A DNA stretch of 40,563 bases from Clostridia bacterium (GTDB lineage Bacteria; Bacillota; Clostridia; Oscillospirales; Acutalibacteraceae). A model generated the notes under the pieces. The model worked only from the letters and a program-made list of their open reading frames with translations. It did no database searches and was not told the DNA's origin. Shown in pieces: positions 22,130 through 29,405 of the stretch. Position 1 is the first letter of the stretch. The number at the start of each line of letters is the position of its first letter. The stretch is from assembly GCA_017537245.1 (NCBI GenBank), contig JAFYLD010000040.1:1-40563 (forward strand). The letters run 5' to 3'. The position numbers were made by a program, and so were the translations under genes.

Positions 22130-24169
22130 TTATTCTTTATTTGCCTCTTCAATAACCTTTTGAGCTATATTTGCAGGTACTGTTTCGTATCTTGCAAACT
22201 CAAGTGTAAAGGTTGCTGTGCCCTGTGTTAGCGAACGCATAGCGGTTGAGAAGTCTGACATTTCGGCAGTTGGTACTTCACCGATGATTTCTTGCATCTT
22301 GTTTTCGAGTGGGTTCATACCAATGATTCTACCACGACGTTTGTTAATATCGCCAATTACGTCACCGAGCATATCGTCAGGAACGATAACGTTAAGTGTG
22401 CTAATAGGCTCTAGTAGAACAGGACTTGCGTTAGAGATACCTTCTTTAAACGCGATAGATGCAGCCATCTTAAACGCCATTTCAGAAGAGTCAACAGGGT
22501 GGTAAGAACCGTCAACGAGTGTTGCCTTAATACCAACCATTGGGTAGCCTGCCAAAACACCCTTTTGGGTAGAGTCGCGAAGACCCTTTTCTACTGCAGG
22601 GAAGAAGTTCTTTGGAACCGCGCCGCCAAATACCTTTTCTTCAAATACGAGTTCGAGGCTATCGGTTGGCTCAAATTCAATCCAAACGTCACCAAATTGA
22701 CCGTGACCGCCAGATTGTTTCTTGTGTCTGCCTTGTGCCTTAACTGCTTTTTGAATTGTTTCGCGATATGCAATCTTTGGTTTAGAGAGTAGTACGTCGC
22801 AACCAAATTTTGCCTTTAGTTTTGATACAACTATATCGGTATGTTGCTCACCGAGTGTGCTCATAACAAGCTCACGTGTTTCGGTGTCGTTATAAACCTT
22901 AAGTGTTGGGTCTTCTTCCATAATTCTGTTAAGACCTGCGCTAATCTTTTCTTCGTCGCCCTTCTTTGCAGGGTAGATAGCGGTCTTAAGATTTGGTAGT
23001 GGGAACTCGATAGCATTAACGGCTACTGTACCAGTTGCAGACAATGTGTCGCCTGTTATGCTTTCGCCAAGCTTTGCAACAGAGCCAATGTCACCCGCCA
23101 TAATTTCGGTAGCGTCTTCTTGTTTGCCGCCTTTTAGCCACATAATCTTTGAAAGACGTTCTTCGTCGCCTGTACGATTATTTTTTAGCTTCATATCGCC
23201 GGTAATTTTACCGGAGATAACCTTAAAGTATGAAAGCTTACCAACAAATGGGTCAGCGATTGTCTTAAAGATAAAGAGCGCGTTTTCTTTTGCAGCATCA
23301 TAAGTAACCTTTACGCCGCTTTCTAACGTATACGTACTATCAGCAGCGGATGGCATAACCTCTGCAATGCTGTCGGCAAATAGACCGATAGCGTCGCCTG
23401 TAAGCTGAACACCGCAATATACAGGACAAATGTCGCCGCCAGCAACACCGGTCTTTAGACCTGCGATAATTTCGTCGGCAGTGAGGTCTTCGCCTTCAAA
23501 GTATTTTTCCATCAACGCTTCGTCGGTAGATGCAACTGCCTCAATAAGCATAGCGCGCATAGAAGCTACTTCGCTGCTATCTGGCATATCGGTATCGGCA
23601 AGATTTAAACCGTCTGCGGTATAAGCTTTGTTAGCAACCAAGTCAACGTAGCACTGAACAACATCGTCAACAATGTATGGAACAACAACAGGGCAAACAA
23701 CTGCGCCGTAATTTGCAACCAAAGCAGAAATTACGCGGTAGAAGTGAGCGTGGGTAGAATTAAGTTTACCAACAAAGAAACCTACTGCCTTACCTGCAGC
23801 GCGAGCCTTTTCAAAAGCTTGCTTTGCGCCAACGGTAAGACCTGATTTACCAGAGATTGTAACAATAACGCTGTCTGCTGCGGCAAGAGCCTCGCTAACG
23901 CCACCCGCAAAGTCAAATAGACCCGGCGCGTCGATAAGATTTAACTTAAAGTCGCCTTTTTCAAGAGCGTAAATGCTGGTAGAAACAGAACAGCCACGTT
24001 TCTTTTCTTCTGCGTCAAAGTCGAAAACTGAGGTACCTTCTGATGTATTACCTATTCGCTCTATTGCTTTGGAATGGTACAAAATCGCGCTTGCAAGCGT
24101 TGATTTACCTGAGTTACCATGACCCAAAAAGGCAATATTTTTAATTTTGTCAGCTGAATAGTTTTTCAT
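22130..24169 (-). CDS. EF-G paralogue (translation-factor GTPase family)
   Basis: The 679-residue protein has the five-domain layout of EF-G: P-loop GHGNSGKS at 16-23, a switch II sequence DAPG at 80-83, and domains III-V with the EF-G-like GGHGQFGDVWIEFEP and RGRIIGM segments. Two GTPase hallmarks deviate. The residue after DAPG, the catalytic His in EF-G/EF-Tu, is Leu84, and the guanine-specificity motif NKxD reads GKLN (134-137). It is therefore an EF-G-like paralogue and not the main translocase. ATG at 24169 is chosen because AAGGAGG precedes it; an in-frame upstream start at 24229 lacks one. It is monocistronic, with its own promoter and terminator. Confidence 0.87.
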   Translation of the reverse strand: MKNYSADKIKNIAFLGHGNSGKSTLASAILYHSKAIERIGNTSEGTSVFDFDAEEKKRGCSVSTSIYALEKGDFKLNLIDAPGLFDFAGGVSEALAAADSVIVTISGKSGLTVGAKQAFEKARAAGKAVGFFVGKLNSTHAHFYRVISALVANYGAVVCPVVVPYIVDDVVQCYVDLVANKAYTADGLNLADTDMPDSSEVASMRAMLIEAVASTDEALMEKYFEGEDLTADEIIAGLKTGVAGGDICPVYCGVQLTGDAIGLFADSIAEVMPSAADSTYTLESGVKVTYDAAKENALFIFKTIADPFVGKLSYFKVISGKITGDMKLKNNRTGDEERLSKIMWLKGGKQEDATEIMAGDIGSVAKLGESITGDTLSATGTVAVNAIEFPLPNLKTAIYPAKKGDEEKISAGLNRIMEEDPTLKVYNDTETRELVMSTLGEQHTDIVVSKLKAKFGCDVLLSKPKIAYRETIQKAVKAQGRHKKQSGGHGQFGDVWIEFEPTDSLELVFEEKVFGGAVPKNFFPAVEKGLRDSTQKGVLAGYPMVGIKATLVDGSYHPVDSSEMAFKMAASIAFKEGISNASPVLLEPISTLNVIVPDDMLGDVIGDINKRRGRIIGMNPLENKMQEIIGEVPTAEMSDFSTAMRSLTQGTATFTLEFARYETVPANIAQKVIEEANKE

Positions 24170-24219
24170 AAGTGTATCCTCCTTGTGAACTTTTACTAAA
24201 AAGTTCTGATTATTGGTTA

Positions 24220-24248
24220 AGTATAGCATATATTTTTAGCAATTACAA
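24220..24248 (-). promoter_or_regulatory. Promoter of the EF-G-like gene
   Basis: On the minus strand TTGTAA (24243-24248) and TATACT (24220-24225) are 17 bp apart. Confidence 0.65.
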
Positions 24249-24294
24249 CCAAAATTTTAAAAAATTTTAATATCTTTTGGTTAAAACTCACAAA

Positions 24295-24353
24295 TTGTAA
24301 CTATTTGTAACCTTTTACGGCTTAAAAGTTACAAAATTGAAAACATTTGTAAC
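24295..24353. repeat. Cluster of TTGTAAC motifs in a divergent intergenic region
   Basis: TTGTAAC occurs directly at 24295-24301, 24305-24311 and 24347-24353, and inverted at 24328-24334. The first two are 10 bp apart. The same tandem pair occurs at 19720-19737 (11 bp apart). Helical-turn spacing suggests protein sites, but the tract is AT-rich and no regulator is identified. Confidence 0.4.
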
Positions 24354-24360
24354 CAAATTG

Positions 24361-24389
24361 TTGCTTAATTTTTTTAGTATTTATATATA
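24361..24389 (+). promoter_or_regulatory. Candidate promoter of the secreted-protein gene
   Basis: TTGCTT (24361-24366) and TATATA (24384-24389) are 17 bp apart. Further TATAAT-like hexamers follow at once, so the exact -10 is uncertain. Confidence 0.5.
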
Positions 24390-24429
24390 TAATATAATCA
24401 CGGAATTTAACTGAAAGGAGTCGTAAGTG

Positions 24430-25017
24430 ATGAAAAAAGTTTTTAGTCTTATTTTATGTGTCGTTGCGATAATTGCTTGTTTGTCACTTATTGCTCCGGA
24501 AATAAGCGACACTGCCAAAGTTTCGGCAGCTACCGCGCAAGAAGCTGGCACAAATCCTGCAGAAGCACGTTTTCTAAACATGCTTAACCACAATTTTGTT
24601 TACAATGCCGATTTTGATAACGCTGACACAATTATCAACAACGCGTCACTCGCGCTCCTTGATTTGCGCGACAGCGCTAACGAGGACTTTATAGCAAACA
24701 CCTACGTTAAGGGTTTTGTAAAAGATATGTACGGCATCGAAATTGAAGATATGTCGGGCATTAATGCTGACTATCCACAACTTGACGGTTATCTCTACGT
24801 CATTCCTCGCGGCTTTACAAGTTATAACCACACCATCGTTTCTATAAAAGAAAATGAAGATGGCAGCTATACAGTAGTAAGCGACGTTATCGTTGATAAC
24901 CACGACGGCTTTGCAAAATCAGAAAAGGCTGTATCACTCTTTGTAAAGAATGACAGTTCTGCTTTTGGCTACAATATGATTTACTGCAACATCATCGAAA
25001 ATAGTACTGATATTTAA
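24430..25017 (+). CDS. Secreted protein of unknown function
   Basis: The 195-residue protein has a Sec signal peptide (MKKVFSLILCVVAIIACLSL, cleavage probably after VSAATA near 36-38). The mature part is about 155 residues, acidic and without membrane segments. It has a helical N-terminal portion (ARFLNMLNHNFVYN) and a beta-rich C-terminal portion (LDGYLYVIPRG, SYTVVSDVIVDN) that could be a small binding or inhibitory fold. No family is recognised. AAGGAG precedes the ATG; a GTG one codon upstream is an alternative start. Confidence 0.75.
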   Translation: MKKVFSLILCVVAIIACLSLIAPEISDTAKVSAATAQEAGTNPAEARFLNMLNHNFVYNADFDNADTIINNASLALLDLRDSANEDFIANTYVKGFVKDMYGIEIEDMSGINADYPQLDGYLYVIPRGFTSYNHTIVSIKENEDGSYTVVSDVIVDNHDGFAKSEKAVSLFVKNDSSAFGYNMIYCNIIENSTDI

Positions 25018-25020
25018 TAA

Positions 25021-25055
25021 AAATACGGGCAAATTAAGTTTGTCCGTATTTTTTT
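25021..25055 (+). terminator. Terminator of the secreted-protein gene
   Basis: AAATACGGGCAAA pairs with TTTGTCCGTATTT (one G-T wobble) around five bases and ends in a T run. Confidence 0.8.
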
Positions 25056-25077
25056 GAAAATTTTTTTAAAATTTTGC

Positions 25078-25106
25078 TTGACAAATTCCCAATAAACATA
25101 TATAAT
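25078..25106 (+). promoter_or_regulatory. Consensus promoter of the tRNA pair
   Basis: TTGACA (25078-25083) and TATAAT (25101-25106) match the sigma-A consensus exactly with a 17-bp spacer, as expected for strongly expressed tRNA genes. It lies 31 bp before tRNA-Met. Confidence 0.9.
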
Positions 25107-25136
25107 ACTTTGGCACGGTGAAAAACCGATGAATAT

Positions 25137-25213
25137 GGCTGTATAGCTCAGCTGGCTAGAGCACACGGTTCATACCCGTGGTGTCATTGGTTCGAATCCT
25201 ATTACAGCCACCA
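25137..25213 (+). tRNA. tRNA-Met (CAT anticodon), elongator type
   Basis: A complete cloverleaf is seen. The acceptor stem GGCTGTA pairs with TACAGCC, the anticodon stem CACGG/CCGTG carries the loop TTCATAC with CAT at 25171-25173, and the T-loop is GGTTCGAATCC. CCA is encoded. G1-C72 pairing and the overall sequence fit elongator Met better than initiator; a lysidine-modified tRNA-Ile2 is less likely but not excluded by anticodon alone. Confidence 0.92.
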
Positions 25214-25216
25214 TTC

Positions 25217-25292
25217 GGCCCGTTGGTCAAGAGGCCTAAGACACCGCCCTTTCACGGCGGTAACACGAGTTCGAATCTCGTACGGGTCACCA
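25217..25292 (+). tRNA. tRNA-Glu (TTC anticodon)
   Basis: The acceptor stem GGCCCGT pairs with ACGGGTC (one G-T), the anticodon stem CCGCC/GGCGG holds the loop CTTTCAC with TTC at 25251-25253, and the T-arm is CGAGTTCGAATCTCG. CCA is encoded. It starts 3 nt after tRNA-Met in the same transcript. Its 3' end is repeated twice downstream. Confidence 0.93.
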
Positions 25293-25298
25293 AAAAAA

Positions 25299-25332
25299 GA
25301 CAGATGCCCTTTAGGGTGTCTGTCCTTTTTTT
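25299..25332 (+). terminator. Terminator of the tRNA operon
   Basis: GACAGATGCCC pairs with GGGTGTCTGTC (two adjacent wobbles) around TTTA and is followed by a long T run. Confidence 0.8.
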
Positions 25333-25344
25333 ATTTGTCTTTAA

Positions 25345-25467
25345 GTGCGAGATTCGAAAAGAACGGTCGGGCAAAGCCCGATGTCAATTGTCCGGGGGAC
25401 AGTTGACAAGTTCGGGTGCGTGTCGGTGGCGGTGCCACCGAGCGAATCTCGTACGGGTCACCAAAAA
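25345..25467. repeat. Structured element ending in a tRNA-Glu 3'-end copy (copy B)
   Basis: Positions 25443-25467 repeat the tRNA-Glu 3' end and flanking A run exactly (25 bp, matching 25272-25296). The element begins with GTGCGAGATTCG (25345-25356), an inverted copy of CGAATCTCGTAC with one mismatch. Between them lie three hairpins: TCGGGC-AAA-GCCCGA (25367-25381), an 11-bp stem GTCAATTGTCC/GGACAGTTGAC with a GGG loop (25383-25407), and TCGGTGGC-GGT-GCCACCGA (25423-25441). The whole could fold as a closed multibranch structure. No anticodon arm or D-arm is present, so it is not a tRNA gene. Confidence 0.75.
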
Positions 25468-25582
25468 TCCCTTAGACAAAAGTCTGAGGGATTTTTACTT
25501 TTTACCTTTTCACTATTCACTTTTATTTAGTCGGTAAAGGGATTTTTGGAAGGTAATAAGTAATAGGTAATAGTGAATAAGT
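25464..25582. repeat. Hairpin plus polypyrimidine/polypurine dispersed repeat
   Basis: A terminator-like hairpin (AAATCCCTTAGAC with GTCTGAGGGATTT, then TTTTT) is followed by a pyrimidine tract (ACTTTTTACCTTTTCAC, CTATTCACTTTT). After a short gap comes a purine tract with inverted similarity (GGTAATAGTGAATAAG). GGGATTTTTACTTTTTAC recurs inverted at about 40068-40085, so this is a dispersed repeat family. Confidence 0.55.
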
Positions 25583-25586
25583 TCGG

Positions 25587-25628
25587 TGTGCCTATGGCAC
25601 AAATATATCCGCAAGGCTTTGCCTTGCG
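25587..25628. repeat. Two short triloop palindromes upstream of the small ORF
   Basis: TGTGCC-TAT-GGCACA (25587-25601) and CGCAAGGC-TTT-GCCTTGCG (25610-25628) are perfect, each with a 3-nt loop, like the hairpins in copies B and C. The second is followed by CTTTTTG and overlaps the -35 of the next gene. Confidence 0.6.
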
Positions 25629-25652
25629 CTTTTTGTTTTATAATGATATAAT
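25624..25652 (+). promoter_or_regulatory. Promoter of the 89-residue ORF, partly inside a palindrome
   Basis: TTGCGC (25624-25629) and TATAAT (25647-25652) are 17 bp apart. The -35 hexamer is formed by the 3' arm of the CGCAAGGC palindrome. Confidence 0.55.
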
Positions 25653-25673
25653 AAATTTTAAGGCGGTGATTGT

Positions 25674-25943
25674 GTGCGAAAATACAAAATAGCTCATTAT
25701 AAGAAATCCAATTCAATTTGGTTCGTTAATGGCGGAAAATTATTAGTGAATGACAACGAATATGTTGTAAAGTGTTTTTTTAAAACTGTAGCAGTGTTTA
25801 AAATTGATAAAACTTTCGCCCATAAAATTTCTTATAATTTATCGCGCAAAGGAATTAATTTATCGGATGACATAAAAAGTATAGATCTTTATTTTCCTGC
25901 AAAAACTTTAGATAAGTTATATGAATTATTTAATCTTAAATGA
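25674..25943 (+). CDS. Small hypothetical protein in the repeat patch
   Basis: The 89-residue basic protein begins at a GTG preceded by GGCGGTG. It is beta-rich in the first half (SIWFVNGGKLLVNDNEYVVK) and ends in a helix (AKTLDKLYELFNLK), rather like a small PH/GRAM-type fold, but no family is recognised. It lies between tRNA-Glu 3'-end copies B and C, has its own promoter and terminator, and is the only gene in that accessory interval. Confidence 0.6.
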   Translation: MRKYKIAHYKKSNSIWFVNGGKLLVNDNEYVVKCFFKTVAVFKIDKTFAHKISYNLSRKGINLSDDIKSIDLYFPAKTLDKLYELFNLK

Positions 25944-25962
25944 TTTTTAGTGTCATATGCAT

Positions 25963-25995
25963 AAAATAAAGCACCCAAAATGGGTGCTTTATTTT
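25963..25995. terminator. Bidirectional terminator
   Basis: AAAATAAAGCACCCA and TGGGTGCTTTATTTT pair perfectly around AAA. It serves the 89-residue ORF and, in reverse, the GH130 fragment. Confidence 0.8.
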
Positions 25996-25996
25996 T

Positions 25997-26065
25997 TTAT
26001 TTCTCATCCACACAAAGATTTAATAGATCTTCTAGTTTTGCGGTAGCAAGGCACTCTACTGTGTC
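25997..26065 (-). pseudogene. C-terminal 22-codon fragment of a second GH130 gene
   Basis: The minus strand encodes DTVECLATAKLEDLLNLCVDEK and a stop, matching the end of the intact GH130 protein at 27009-28016 (DTVECLATAKLEDLLNLC, then AESM). The DNA match over about 56 bp has roughly three differences, and 26033-26065 is identical to the intact gene. Homology stops abruptly at 26065, in the first bases of repeat copy C, so a GH130 paralogue was probably cut away here. Confidence 0.8.
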
Positions 26066-26112
26066 GACGGCGCTGCCGTCGAGCGAATCTCGTACGGGTC
26101 ACCAAAAAAAGA
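26064..26112. repeat. tRNA-Glu 3'-end copy C with preceding hairpin
   Basis: Positions 26084-26112 match tRNA-Glu and its 3' flank (25272-25300) over 29 bp. Directly before lies TCGACGGC-GCT-GCCGTCGA (26064-26082), the equivalent of TCGGTGGC-GGT-GCCACCGA in copy B. The two stems differ at two positions on each arm by compensatory changes (GT/AC versus AC/GT), and both copies share the same 2-bp deletion relative to the tRNA (GAGCGAATC versus GAGTTCGAATC). Confidence 0.8.
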
Positions 26113-26135
26113 ACACCTAAAAGGTGTTCTTTTTT
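26104..26135. terminator. Bidirectional terminator after the transaminase operon
   Basis: GAACACC and GGTGTTC, extended by A and T runs, flank TAAAA. It ends the minus-strand operon whose last gene stops at 26150. It overlaps the A run of repeat copy C. Confidence 0.8.
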
Positions 26136-26149
26136 CTTTTATGCAAAAT

Positions 26150-26992
26150 TTAATTAGTTTCGCGCAAAAAGTCTTGTAACAACGTTTTTTGCAAACGCTC
26201 GACAATTTCTGTCGCTTTGTCGCCTACTGATTTGCCGTCTACTTTATCGGCCACAAGACACAACGCGCCGGCCGACGATACAAGCACCTCATCGGCGTCA
26301 AAAAGTTGTTCTAGGTTAAACGGCTGTTCTAAAACAGGTACGTTCATTTCCTTGCAAGCCTTTATAATATGCTTTCTTGCAATGCCCGGTAAAATTAAAT
26401 TATCGGTAGGCGCGGTAATTAGCGCGCCATCTTTTATAATATGTACGTTGCTATGCGCGCACTCGGTAACGCGTCCGTTTCTATGAAAAACCGTTTCAAA
26501 GCATCCTGCTTCTTTTGCTCGTTGAGATGCAATAACCGCAGGAATTAGATTTAGGGTTTTTATGTTGCAGTGTAAAAAACGTGTGTCCTCCATTGTAATA
26601 AGCTGAACACGCTTTTCAAGGTTTAAAATTTCTTTATGGTAAATATTTATCCAGATATTTGCCCTACCTTCGCTTGGAAACGTATGGTTTCTAACCGCCG
26701 CGCTACCGCGTGTAGCCTGAAAATAAACAAAGTTTTCACCCGTGTCCATTTTCTTAACCATATCGTTTAATAACTCTGCCATTTCTTGCTTTGAATATGG
26801 CAGTTCTATCTCTAAAAGCTTGGCGCTATTATAAAATCTATCTAAATGTTCGTCGAGCGAAAATATATTATAATTTCGACTGTAGGTAGCGTCGTATATA
26901 CCATCGCCAAAAAAGCAAACTCTATCACTCATTGGAATAAAGATGTTTTCTATTTCGTCGCAAACGCCGTTATAATAACCTAAATTTTTCAT
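26150..26992 (-). CDS. Class IV aminotransferase, D-amino-acid transaminase type
   Basis: The 280-residue PLP enzyme is of fold type IV. The PLP lysine is Lys145 (CNIKTLN) and the cofactor Glu is Glu177 (VTECAHSN). RNHTFP at 101-106 gives the Arg-x-His carboxylate trap that, with Tyr33, is diagnostic of D-alanine/D-amino-acid transaminases as against branched-chain ones. It would make D-Ala or D-Glu from keto acids. GAGGAC precedes the ATG, 16 bp after the GH130 stop, so it is the last gene of the four-gene operon. Confidence 0.82.
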   Translation of the reverse strand: MKNLGYYNGVCDEIENIFIPMSDRVCFFGDGIYDATYSRNYNIFSLDEHLDRFYNSAKLLEIELPYSKQEMAELLNDMVKKMDTGENFVYFQATRGSAAVRNHTFPSEGRANIWINIYHKEILNLEKRVQLITMEDTRFLHCNIKTLNLIPAVIASQRAKEAGCFETVFHRNGRVTECAHSNVHIIKDGALITAPTDNLILPGIARKHIIKACKEMNVPVLEQPFNLEQLFDADEVLVSSAGALCLVADKVDGKSVGDKATEIVERLQKTLLQDFLRETN

Positions 26993-27008
26993 AAAATGTC
27001 CTCGTGTT

Positions 27009-28016
27009 TTACATTGATTCTGCGCAAAGATTTAATAAATCTTCAAGTTTTGCGGTAGCAAGGCACTCTACTGTGTCGGATGCGCCGTAGTAAATTTTTA
27101 CCTCGCCGTCGTCTTCAAGTATCATACCGCCCGGGAATATTACGTTTTGACGAAGTCCCTCGTCAACCTCGTAATCGGTTTCGGGCGCGATAAGTGGCAA
27201 CTTGCTCATACCTATTACCTTTGACGGATCGTTAAGGTCAAGTAGCATAATGCCTGCGCAGTAACGCTTTTTCCAGGTATCTTCCCAACCGTTTTTACCG
27301 CGTGTTTGGTCTATATCTACGCTATGAAAAGTAGTAAGCCAACCTTTTTCGGTCTTGATAGGTGGCGCTGCAGGGCCAATCTTATCATTAGCAAACGGCA
27401 CGTGCTCAACACCCATAACAAGTGTGTTGTTACCCCAGAATTTAAGGTCTGGCGACTGCGCAAACCAAATGTCAAAACGGTCTTTACCACCGCGTGAATA
27501 TACCGGGAATGGACGCTCTAGACGAGTGTATAGTCCATTTATCTTTTCCGGGAAAAGCACCATATTGCGATTGTCGGGAGCCGAGATGCTAAGCACCTCA
27601 AGACGCTCGAGGTCGTGAATAATACCAACGCCGCCGTGAACACCGTGATTTGTATCAACCGCAAAACACATATATAATACGTCGTCGATTACTGTAAGAC
27701 GAGGGTCGTAAAAACGTCGAATTTCATCAGTTACATAATCTTCGGCCGCTAAAAATGGTTTTGGAGAAACGTTCCAATGAATACCATCGTCGCTGGTAGC
27801 AAGACCTAGGTCTACCTTTTTAAGCGGATTTGTTCCGTAGCCGTTTATTTTAATATCGTTACGAAAAACCATAACGTACTTGCCCTTGTATTTTGCAATA
27901 CCGGCATTGTAAATACAGGTTGCCTCGTAAGGAATATCTTTCATAGAAAGAACCGGATTGCCCTCGTATCTTTTGATAACGGGGGACGATTTAAGTTCTG
28001 GAAAGACCTTTGGCAT
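27009..28016 (-). CDS. GH130-family mannoside phosphorylase-like enzyme
   Basis: The 335-residue protein fits GH130, a five-bladed propeller family that phosphorolyses beta-mannosides. It has NPVLSMKDIPYEATCIYNAG near the start, YDPRLT with the likely catalytic Asp104, and RNMVLFPEKINGLYTRLERP and GPAAPPI in the active-site region. No signal peptide is visible, so it would act on imported mannosides, releasing mannose 1-phosphate. Subfamily and acceptor cannot be decided. AGGAG precedes the ATG, 18 bp after the MATE stop. A C-terminal fragment of a close paralogue lies 1 kb downstream. Confidence 0.88.
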   Translation of the reverse strand: MPKVFPELKSSPVIKRYEGNPVLSMKDIPYEATCIYNAGIAKYKGKYVMVFRNDIKINGYGTNPLKKVDLGLATSDDGIHWNVSPKPFLAAEDYVTDEIRRFYDPRLTVIDDVLYMCFAVDTNHGVHGGVGIIHDLERLEVLSISAPDNRNMVLFPEKINGLYTRLERPFPVYSRGGKDRFDIWFAQSPDLKFWGNNTLVMGVEHVPFANDKIGPAAPPIKTEKGWLTTFHSVDIDQTRGKNGWEDTWKKRYCAGIMLLDLNDPSKVIGMSKLPLIAPETDYEVDEGLRQNVIFPGGMILEDDGEVKIYYGASDTVECLATAKLEDLLNLCAESM

Positions 28017-28034
28017 AATAAATCTCCTTTTGTT

Positions 28035-29405
28035 TTATATGTCGTCGGCAAGCGTTTTTCTGCGTTGCCAGATTCCTGATAAAAAGTATATAACACCGGG
28101 TATTGCATAGCCGTAAGCCGCAAGACCATAACCCAAGACAAAGCCGTAGAATCCCCAATCAAAGTATATACCAAACAGCCAGCTTAGACCAATACGTAGC
28201 ACCACGCCGTCTAAAAGCGCTAACACCATACTGAGCTTTGCGTTGCCTATGCCTTGAATTAGCGCACCTGTACCACGCATAAGCGCGAGGGCTGGGAACA
28301 TCCAAAGTATTGCTTTAATAAACGTGCCCGAAAGTTCGTGAACGGCAGGGTCGTCTGAGAATAATTGGAACATAAATTTACCAAAGAATATGTAAAGCGC
28401 TATAAACACTACCGTCCAAATTCCTGCAAAAATCCAAGCACAATGCACTACTCGTTTTGCGCGCTCTGGTTTGCCGGCGCCTACGTTTTGGCTTACCATT
28501 GGCATTGCGGCAAAGTGAATACCTTGAGATATCTTGTTGATAATATCGTCTATCTTACCGCCCGCGCTAAAGGTAGCCGATTCTACAAGACCAATGCCGT
28601 TTATCATAGAGTTTACAAACAACATTGAAATATTGATGCAACCTGATTGTATCGCCATTGGTGTACCGATAGATAGCATCATTTTGGCGTATTGACGATG
28701 CATTATAAAGCTCTTTGGCTTAAAGTCAAAACCAAATGCCTCTTTTCGCTTATAGAGGTAGTAAATCGAGAATATAAACGATACCGCTTGACCAATAACG
28801 GTGGCGTAGGCCGCGCCTGCAACTCCCCATCCCCAAAGACCTGTGAATAGATAGTCTAGTATCAAGTTTACAGCCGACGCTATCGCGATAAACAAAAGCG
28901 GCCTTGACGAGTCGCCCATGCCACGAAGTATCGCCGACACTATGTTGTAACCTGCGGTAAAAATAAAACCTACTGTACATATTACCATATACTCCATCGC
29001 CATATCGTACGATGCTTTTGGTATGTTCATAAGGTCTAGTATTTGAGTTCTAAAACCTAGTATTATAATCGACAGTATTGCCGCTATTATAAATATAAGG
29101 GTAAACAACGTGCCGATAATGTCGTTCATCTCTTTGCGCTTACCAACGCCTAGCGCCTGCGCTAAAAGTACCTGCCCCGCGTTTGAAAAGCCGAGACACA
29201 ACATGGTGGCAAAGGTGATAATATAACCGCTTTGACCTACCGCAGAAATGCCCGCAGTACCAACGTATTTACCAACAATAACCATATCTATCGTGCTGTA
29301 AAGCACCTGTAATGCGTTAGACAACATAAACGGCAACATAAAAGTAAACATTTGCCGCATTATAGGTCCGCTTGTAAAATTCTTGCTAATTGCCTTTTTA
29401 GACAC
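28035..29405 (-). CDS. MATE-family efflux transporter
   Basis: The 456-residue protein has about twelve membrane helices and MATE features (FMLPFMLSNALQVLYSTIDM, then GKYVGTAGISAVGQSG). It is of the NorM/DinF-like superfamily, distinct from the MATE at 4606-5940. The start is GTG at 29405, three bases after the acetyltransferase stop, with GAAGAG in the end of that gene as a distant ribosome site. Operon membership with sugar enzymes might mean export of a sugar-derived product, but this is a guess. Confidence 0.88.
   Translation of the reverse strand: MSKKAISKNFTSGPIMRQMFTFMLPFMLSNALQVLYSTIDMVIVGKYVGTAGISAVGQSGYIITFATMLCLGFSNAGQVLLAQALGVGKRKEMNDIIGTLFTLIFIIAAILSIIILGFRTQILDLMNIPKASYDMAMEYMVICTVGFIFTAGYNIVSAILRGMGDSSRPLLFIAIASAVNLILDYLFTGLWGWGVAGAAYATVIGQAVSFIFSIYYLYKRKEAFGFDFKPKSFIMHRQYAKMMLSIGTPMAIQSGCINISMLFVNSMINGIGLVESATFSAGGKIDDIINKISQGIHFAAMPMVSQNVGAGKPERAKRVVHCAWIFAGIWTVVFIALYIFFGKFMFQLFSDDPAVHELSGTFIKAILWMFPALALMRGTGALIQGIGNAKLSMVLALLDGVVLRIGLSWLFGIYFDWGFYGFVLGYGLAAYGYAIPGVIYFLSGIWQRRKTLADDI

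Follow-up and report, generated by a model that had tools for sequence, protein, structure and literature searches.

Why should the 3' end of a single tRNA gene occur three times in succession? The question arises in a 40,563-nucleotide stretch of DNA from a Clostridia bacterium of the Acutalibacteraceae (hereafter the window; assembly GCA_017537245.1, contig JAFYLD010000040.1), in which a tRNA-Glu gene (anticodon TTC; 25217–25292, + strand, called by ARAGORN and Rfam) is followed by two further copies of its own end. A first-pass annotation had noted that the last 21 nt of this gene (25272–25292) and the A run behind them recur exactly at 25443–25467 (25 nt) and 26084–26112 (29 nt), that GAGTT|CGAATC of the tRNA is shortened to GAG|CGAATC in both extra copies, two bases being missing at the junction, and that an 8-bp triloop hairpin precedes each of them (TCGGTGGC-GGT-GCCACCGA at 25423–25441 and TCGACGGC-GCT-GCCGTCGA at 26064–26082). 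The two hairpins differ by two double compensatory changes. We found all of these observations to be accurate. When the window's genome was searched for GAGCGAATCTCGTACGGGTCACCA with up to two mismatches, it turned up in three places, exactly in both copies and with two mismatches in the tRNA itself, and this restriction argues that the repeat is not due to chance. As described below, the hairpin is the last helix of a larger element that recurs behind many tRNA genes in some gut Clostridia. Judged on literature and Rfam searches, the element may represent an undescribed family of mobile cassettes that dock at tRNA genes.

A structured element lies between copies of the tRNA 3' end

The full structured element of the window comprises about 110 nt (25345–25455). 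It starts with a left arm, P1L (GTGCGAGATTCG; 25345–25356, + strand), that is antisense to nucleotides 56–67 of tRNA-Glu with one G·T pair. P1L leads into an 86-nt structured body (25357–25442, + strand), defined by a covariance-model match, folds and covariation, in which AAAAG is followed by P2 (a 4-bp stem, GAAC/GTTC), the hairpin P2a, the long hairpin P2b (25382–25408), the linker CGGGTGCGTG (25413–25422), the hairpin P3 (25423–25441) and a GAG junction. The body ends and the right arm, P1R, begins at GAG|CGAATCTCGTAC; P1R and the rest of the duplicated tRNA-Glu 3' end (nt 56–76) occupy 25443–25463 on the + strand. The hairpin that had first drawn attention is P3. It is real, but it is only one of several helices in this larger body. 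Compared with shuffled sequences, the stretch 25340–25467 folds with a z-score of −6.75 as RNA and −6.50 as DNA.

Each tRNA end in the window is followed by a hairpin terminator on the + strand, assigned by eye. The first (25293–25334) lies directly 3' of the CCA and separates the tRNA from P1L. The second (25464–25498), which is unlike the first in sequence, opens a gene-bearing stretch, and the third (26105–26140) follows the third copy of the tRNA-Glu 3' end (nt 56–76; 26084–26104, + strand). The element preceding this third copy is a remnant (26064–26083, + strand) that retains P3 and junction nucleotides only, so that the copy at 26064–26112 lacks everything to the left of P3.

The inverted tRNA arm, the body around P3 and the truncation of the second copy go beyond what the first-pass annotation had recognized, as does a further body copy in the window's genome (C21:80–164). 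The arms of this copy consist of the 3' end of another tRNA. Its own tRNA has been lost at a contig end, and its arm letters are those of tRNA-Ser(GCT) of other genomes.

The body defines a family with a conserved fold

We searched for relatives with two covariance models, R1, built from the body alone in 11 copies, and the broader R2, built from 71 copies. Of 70 genomes of the genus, 36 were hit by R1, with 136 matches in total (E ≤ 0.01) and at most 15 in one genome. In a sample of the family it matched 29 of 299 genomes and 21 of 122 genera (E ≤ 0.001), four of the 29 belonging to the window's own genus, and R2 matched six of 392 genomes in a sample of the class, two of them again from this genus. 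These genome counts are lower bounds, with stricter filters for scans of more than 40 genomes. Two genomes of one other family (G456 and G591) carry a shorter body behind tRNA-Tyr that, by eye, follows the same arm logic. The named records that bear the element are metagenome-assembled genomes (among them Tb.RUG.48, RGIG7795 from water buffalo reticulum, RUG11190, RUG14147, UBA3220 and SIG560), filed under Clostridiaceae, Ruminococcaceae, Oscillospiraceae or Clostridia; judging by their names, most presumably come from the rumen. For locus-by-locus analysis, re-fetched copies were merged to 153 distinct ones, the flanks being fetched for only part of the 136 R1 matches and 32 hits from 25 family loci being added.

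The fold of the body is preserved across these copies. In the 71-copy alignment 93.6% of the cells are paired, double changes occur in 26 of 28 pairs, and covariation scores 0.610, compared with 0.167 for shuffled alignments and at most 0.135 when the structure is slid. This alignment was fitted to the model structure and is hence biased towards it. An 11-copy MAFFT alignment, made independently of the model, shows double changes in 17 of 33 predicted pairs. The earlier suggestion of selection on structure, drawn from two hairpins, is in this way borne out for a repeated family behind many tRNA genes. The body also contains conserved unpaired nucleotides.

By contrast, the description of the element as tRNA-derived or as resembling a short interspersed element (SINE) fails. 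The tRNA model finds the two tRNA genes and nothing else, tRNA sequence is confined to the arms, and the element matches no Rfam family at threshold, loose thresholds returning tRNAs and matches far below threshold. No description of such an element came to light in literature searches made for it, which were narrow and had most subscription papers and preprints outside their scope. The accessible part of one survey of structured RNAs (PMC8040213) contains nothing on the element under the terms tried.

As a separate observation, the P2b hairpin CAGTCCGGTGGACTG occurs alone in other Clostridia (L237 and L238), where it is possibly an independent palindromic repeat. Because these loci have only P2b in common with the element, we did not accept them as family members.

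The left arm and the linker fit the adjacent tRNA

A tRNA or transfer-messenger RNA (tmRNA) gene lies upstream on the same strand, within the stretch fetched, for 130 of the 153 distinct copies, at a distance of no more than 120 nt in 106 of the 130. The targets comprise 24 tRNA anticodon types and tmRNA. Among the 23 copies without an upstream tRNA, 17 start less than 250 nt from the start of their stretch, and six do not (L100, L101, L131, L172 and two in L152); in L101 a tRNA-Val gene lies about 1.6 kb upstream of the copy, and in L131 a masked run covers an apparent tRNA-Leu. At the tmRNA loci (L140, L116 and L067) the arms are matched to the tmRNA T-arm. For the comparisons below, three copies more than 330 nt from their tRNA were left out (leaving 127), then two without a readable C56 (leaving 125), then three with a short right flank (leaving 122). 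The copies are related and the tests of fit to the tRNA ignore kinship, so that p values overstate their independence.

P1L matches nucleotides 56–67 of its own tRNA at 10.58 of 12 positions (122 copies), compared with 7.55 for shuffled tRNAs (standard deviation 0.12, maximum 7.88 in 1,000 shuffles) when the register is chosen anew for each shuffle; a register set from the own tRNA only gave a nearly equal result (125 copies). In the 125-copy set the observed value of 10.57 also exceeds that obtained by shuffling inside the classes defined by T or C at position 62 (7.98), and even that obtained by shuffling among tRNAs identical at nt 56–62 (9.50, maximum 9.82 in 2,000 shuffles). Forty-eight distinct target 12-mers are represented among these copies. 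In 66 of 127 copies no other tRNA matches as well as the own one, and in 61 the own tRNA is tied or beaten, with 7.5% of other tRNA ends scoring equally on average, because T-arm letters are common to many tRNAs.

The linker carries a second fit. In the 102 copies whose linker conforms to CGxGyGCGTG, y is T in 60 of 62 copies next to a tRNA with T62 and is not T in 39 of 40 next to one with C62 (Fisher p 1e-24). Since y tracks nucleotide 62, the copies fall into two subfamilies that fit two T-stem classes.

Among the matches listed, exact 8-nt antisense matches of the arm begin at C56, 21 (rarely 22) nucleotides before the tRNA end. The right arm is identical to the tRNA 3' end at 19 or more of 21 positions in 56 of 127 copies. 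Measured by edit distance in 122 copies, the right flank holds the exact tRNA 3' end in 54 and lies within four edits of it in 74; it differs by at least seven edits in 32, which we call tail-type, and 16 fall between. Many copies thus have the 3' end of the gene directly repeated on either side, a feature of islands that target tRNA and tmRNA genes.

Tandem units, gene cargo and variable occupancy

Successive copies form arrays whose repeating unit is tRNA nt 56–76 (or a drifted form of it), a terminator, P1L and the body. Of 19 spacings, 12 measure 152–175 bp, the rest being 115, 205, 258, 269, 679, 1235 and 1338 bp. In L130 a terminator and the left part of its element flank a different unit, an arrangement that joint movement of terminator and left element part would produce. 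Several arrays stop inside P1L or the body.

The proposal that the repeats mark out cassettes is supported: units look like cassettes with tRNA 3' ends as their limits, and a few hold a gene. In the window the candidate cargo of the second cassette is an 89-amino-acid open reading frame (ORF; 25674–25943, + strand) for which Pfam and PADLOC searches gave nothing at E 0.01. Between two elements of L165 lies the gene for a 306-amino-acid protein that matches PADLOC PDC-S02, a phage-defence candidate (E 1.8e-30), and the cargo of L171 is a methyltransferase.

Occupancy varies at orthologous positions. At a locus formed by tRNA-Arg(ACG) and a gene for an M50-protease-like protein (named by eye), matched in 63 of 70 genomes, 30 loci were fetched and the tRNA is visible in 11; eight of these 11 carry one or two elements and three carry none (G011, G019 and G035). 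A copy number of zero, one or two at one orthologous locus contradicts the view that the copies are fixed among relatives and is what mobility would produce, mobility itself being our interpretation. For 18 of 126 copies the nearest body is found behind another tRNA of the same genome (4.6 expected), for 41 it is found behind the same tRNA of a different genome (8.8 expected), and for 65 neither applies (112.4 expected). Elements have thus probably both persisted at their tRNA and moved to others. In G067, for instance, the bodies at tRNA-Arg and tRNA-Glu are 93% identical.

Among 16 tRNA-Glu(TTC) loci found by sequence pattern, eight have the element, seven have none and one is cut off. A second tRNA-Glu gene (CTC by eye; L003, L006, L016, L017, L023, L024 and L025) has the same last 21 nt, and the element occurs in none of its seven loci within the stretch read behind the gene, compared with the eight of 16 TTC loci. 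Where these loci were read further, apparent tRNA-Asn and 5S rRNA genes follow.

Two further observations concern variation and decay. Two tandem bodies in L156 differ by one nucleotide, and their tails differ strongly over about 17 nt after P1R, a local hypervariable patch by eye. In the window's own genome (C2, L033:316–1450) a left-arm remnant (GGAGAGACTTGAAAAGAACGGTC) follows a gene downstream of tRNA-Tyr whose product, by eye, is rich in glycine and probably secreted; the remnant may be the trace of a decayed cassette.

A proposed model of cassettes that dock at tRNA genes

We favour a reading in which the units are small, site-specific mobile DNA cassettes, integron-like in their logic, with a docking point between T-loop nucleotides 55 and 56 of tRNA and tmRNA genes, and we give it a probability of roughly 0.45. 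A unit would consist of tRNA nt 56–76, which rebuild the tRNA on insertion, a terminator, an optional gene, P1L and the structured body. P1L would serve as an address at the DNA level: its full 9–12 nt are complementary to the target T-arm, and its inner ~6 nt would form with P1R the helix that closes the body. In single-stranded form, the folded body would be recognized by a recombinase supplied in trans, as attC is by the integron integrase. New units would enter beside the tRNA, where arrays would lengthen while their distal end decays.

The attC sites of integron cassettes are folded imperfect palindromes with outer arms designated R'' and R'. The element shares with them tandem units that end in such a palindrome with complementary outer arms, a structure kept more than its sequence, an occasional single gene per unit and one fixed docking site. 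The systems differ in that the docking site here would be a tRNA or tmRNA T-arm, not attI, and the arms are matched to a particular tRNA; the unit carries a tRNA 3' end and a terminator; and the body has the P2/P2a/P2b/P3 arrangement instead of the attC layout. Most units here have no gene, and no integrase was seen beside the window array. In integrons it is the folded bottom strand that recombines, and for the present element scarce G·T pairs suggest folding as DNA. The R-box consensus is GTTRRRY. The junction that we place at G-TT|C in tRNA T-arms departs from it, as GTTC does not fit GTTR, and it likewise lacks an attI.

A bolder version of this proposal, which we advance only tentatively, is that the family constitutes a new class of address-bearing cassettes, in which the antisense arm is re-matched to each tRNA or tmRNA and the linker specifies the T-stem class. 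Such cassettes would have colonized 24 anticodon types and tmRNA at up to 15 copies per genome, and would have collected gene cassettes, including the defence candidate, by way of a putative recombination enzyme.

Observations that weigh against docking, and the alternatives they raise

Several findings sit uneasily with mobile docking cassettes, the first of them in the arms themselves. We compared the 74 near-full copies (within four edits) with the 32 tail-type copies, excluding the 16 intermediates. In the tail-type copies P1L matches tRNA nt 62–67 at 85%, compared with 47% for shuffled tRNAs (maximum 60%), and the result is unchanged with one copy per array (27 copies). P1R matches the same nucleotides at 30% in these copies, partly by the definition of the group, which does not affect the P1L value, and P1L and P1R agree at 30%. 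A cruder grouping by contiguous right-arm identity, which placed some near-full tRNA ends with one indel among the tail-type copies, gave 84% for P1L, 47% for other tRNAs and 41% for P1R. Because its match is kept where P1R has drifted, P1L is coupled to the tRNA and not just to its partner. Such retention, the strongest objection to docking cassettes, is not what decay following a final jump would lead to; a host function or upkeep by template switching may be needed to explain it. In copies with a near-full tRNA end, the match of P1L to nt 62–67 is lower, at 77%. Two copies in L152 (1501–1790) also break the rule of position: they lie upstream, not downstream, of tRNA-Gly, and their left arm fits neither the right arm nor any tRNA seen there.

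The retained P1L match is what one would expect of a host-maintained cis element for tRNA expression or maturation. A putative read-through transcript, or the DNA, would switch P1L between tRNA nt 56–67, forming a long hairpin around the terminator, and P1R, closing the body, with tandem copies arising by ordinary duplication. The closeness of most copies to their tRNA suits such a function, as do two mutually exclusive hairpins that both fold well in the window. In the first, tRNA nt 56–67, the first terminator and the left arm form one long hairpin (25272–25357; z −6.46 as DNA); in the second, P1L and P1R pair around the body (z −7.53). The first hairpin reaches a z-score of −10.70 in L020; the L048 stretch (z −4.50) was cut without tRNA nt 56–67 and gives no test of it.

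The character of the pairing speaks against a switch in RNA. Body helices contain G·T in 42 of 3,228 cells (1.3%, excluding 103 G·T cells of one nearly invariant column), compared with 97 of 1,332 (7.3%) for 111 tRNA genes of the loci collected at that stage, counted over their acceptor and T stems (Fisher p 1e-23, for related sequences). Mismatches between P1L and tRNA nt 56–64 comprise 12 G·T, 14 A·C and 23 others among 1,125 positions, without an excess of wobble. As a selected RNA helix should tolerate wobble, its scarcity suggests pairing, recognition or templating at the DNA level, and it points to folding as DNA, RNA being less likely. The element is, moreover, dispensable, given that 34 of 70 genus genomes have no match and seven of the 16 tRNA-Glu(TTC) loci no element, and near-identical bodies stand at different tRNAs. 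On balance we regard a host-maintained cis element as unlikely.

Scarce G·T pairs and a P1L that tracks its tRNA could also be accounted for without any enzyme, by replication errors. Slippage between tRNA nt 56–76 and P1R would generate tandem units, and the pairing would be kept perfect by template switching inside the imperfect palindromes that tRNA and P1L, or P1L and P1R, form; template switching at quasipalindromes is described in the accessible parts of two published papers (PMC7202029, PMC8794818). The truncated last units of arrays and the homogenized blocks of terminator and P1L, for example in array L020, would follow as well. Replication errors leave unexplained, however, how the same body spread to 24 anticodon types and tmRNA, why a linker letter tracks nt 62 and why unpaired nucleotides are conserved, and in tail-type copies P1R stays uncorrected beyond ~6 nt. 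We consider this account quite doubtful.

The search for a mover or carrier of the proposed cassettes provides further points on the negative side. A match to the Y1 transposase (PF01797) is found in 22 of 36 bearing genomes and 20 of 34 others (p 1.0); it is missing from 14 of the 36, including G053 with its 15 copies, although past activity is possible. Large serine recombinases occur in 26 of 36 bearing and 27 of 34 other genomes (p 0.58). Tyrosine recombinases are present in all 30 genomes searched, 12 of them bearing, and G006 (97% complete, three copies) has a single one at E ≤ 1e-10. With no association for the first two and presence in every genome searched for the third, we rejected these families as the resident mover. 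The units do not carry an integrase of their own: 12 of the 19 spacings (152–175 bp) are too short for one, and the cargo ORFs of the window, L165 and L171 are not integrases. No integron integrase gene, intI, was recognized among the ORFs of window 23000–29000, partly by eye and with intI models not searched. In viral contigs, a pattern that recognizes 94 of the 153 known copies picked out 18 loci, none of them true by R2; two weak R2 hits among them (E 0.096 and 0.48) resemble coding sequence by eye. The 128-base window element had no blastn match in phage and plasmid records. No near-identical strain supplied a clean insertion boundary, most units have no gene, and the named genomes are all metagenome assemblies in which arrays often run into contig ends.

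Two groups of small elements associated with Y1 transposases invite comparison. Repetitive extragenic palindromic (REP) sequences and miniature inverted-repeat transposable elements (MITEs) moved by Y1 (RAYT) transposases are short, non-coding, hairpin-rich, multicopy and non-autonomous. The present element resembles them in these features; unlike them, it is tied to tRNA genes and has a target-matched arm, and Y1 presence is uncorrelated with it, so that we do not accept a REP/MITE reading. At the ends of IS200/IS605 elements, a guide sequence of 4–5 nt recognizes the cleavage site in single-stranded DNA. By analogy, P1L may act in a similar way, as a short target-complementary sequence 5' of a hairpin. 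The guide here would be longer (9–12 nt), the tRNA end is duplicated, and Y1 is unmatched in those 14 bearing genomes.

The 3' ends of tRNA and tmRNA genes are classic integration sites, and the repeats could be ordinary att-site scars, tRNA 3' ends left behind by phages, integrative and conjugative elements or islands that have since been lost. One locus shows such a neighbour. In L100 (260–1440) a tyrosine integrase gene and then a tRNA-Arg 3' end directly precede an element array; we read this as an ordinary integrative element inserted between tRNA and array, and not as the mover of the cassettes. Tandem islands of this kind have been described at ssrA in Dehalococcoides (dsiB), where the accessible part of PMC3146451 gives an inferred insertion point in the middle of the tmRNA T-loop, a 20-bp direct repeat of the gene end at the boundaries, a 15-bp motif beside the repeat and, in 16 islands, an integration module around a serine recombinase. 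As far as that part of the source goes, the docking point in the T-loop and the tandem repeats of the gene end resemble what we observe, whereas the many units of ~150–175 bp, the ~100-nt structured body, the antisense arm, the range of 24 anticodon types and tmRNA, and an array in which no such module was seen are different. Such scars would share neither one conserved, covarying body at many tRNAs nor an inverted arm matched to each tRNA, the common unit length leaves no space for an integrase gene, and recombinase families are uncorrelated with the element. Already strained by the covariation and by the tracking of the tRNA by P1L, this explanation is very improbable in our estimation.

Neighbouring features of the window and of related loci

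Upstream of tRNA-Glu in the window lies a tRNA-Met gene (CAT; 25137–25213, + strand; ARAGORN and Rfam RF00005). On the far side, the truncated element borders a fragment of the 3' end of a GH130 gene (DTVECLATAKLEDLLNLC...; 25998–26063, − strand), a partial copy of the end of the full GH130 gene at 27009–28016. By eye, the fragment meets P3 at the microhomology GTGTCG (within 25998–26083), and the fusion looks like a rearrangement junction.

A second, longer type of structured body is present in the same arrays at tRNA-Pro and tRNA-Leu (in array orientation, L080:1268–1520, L130:1146–1400 and L136:1187–1400), and its sequence resembles GACGGGTACTG...GGTCGTCGAGC. In the tRNA-Pro case the left arm is apparently antisense to the 3' side of the anticodon stem and the variable loop. 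Rfam returned only tRNAs and two hits far below threshold for this body. Elsewhere (L001, L023 and L145:14901–15550), genes for four-helix-bundle proteins, named by eye, lie directly behind tRNA genes, flanked by series of small ATGATG/ATATCATC hairpins, in what seems to be a further family of repeats associated with tRNA genes.

Implications

Many copies lie at contig ends, and the element therefore probably breaks assemblies at tRNA genes. If the element were regulatory, it would be a new kind of tRNA-adjacent switch. If the cassette model is correct, the target address could be read directly from the element, and target choice in DNA recombination would become testable by changing one arm. 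The tRNA genes of these Clostridia would then be integron-like platforms without a recognized integron.

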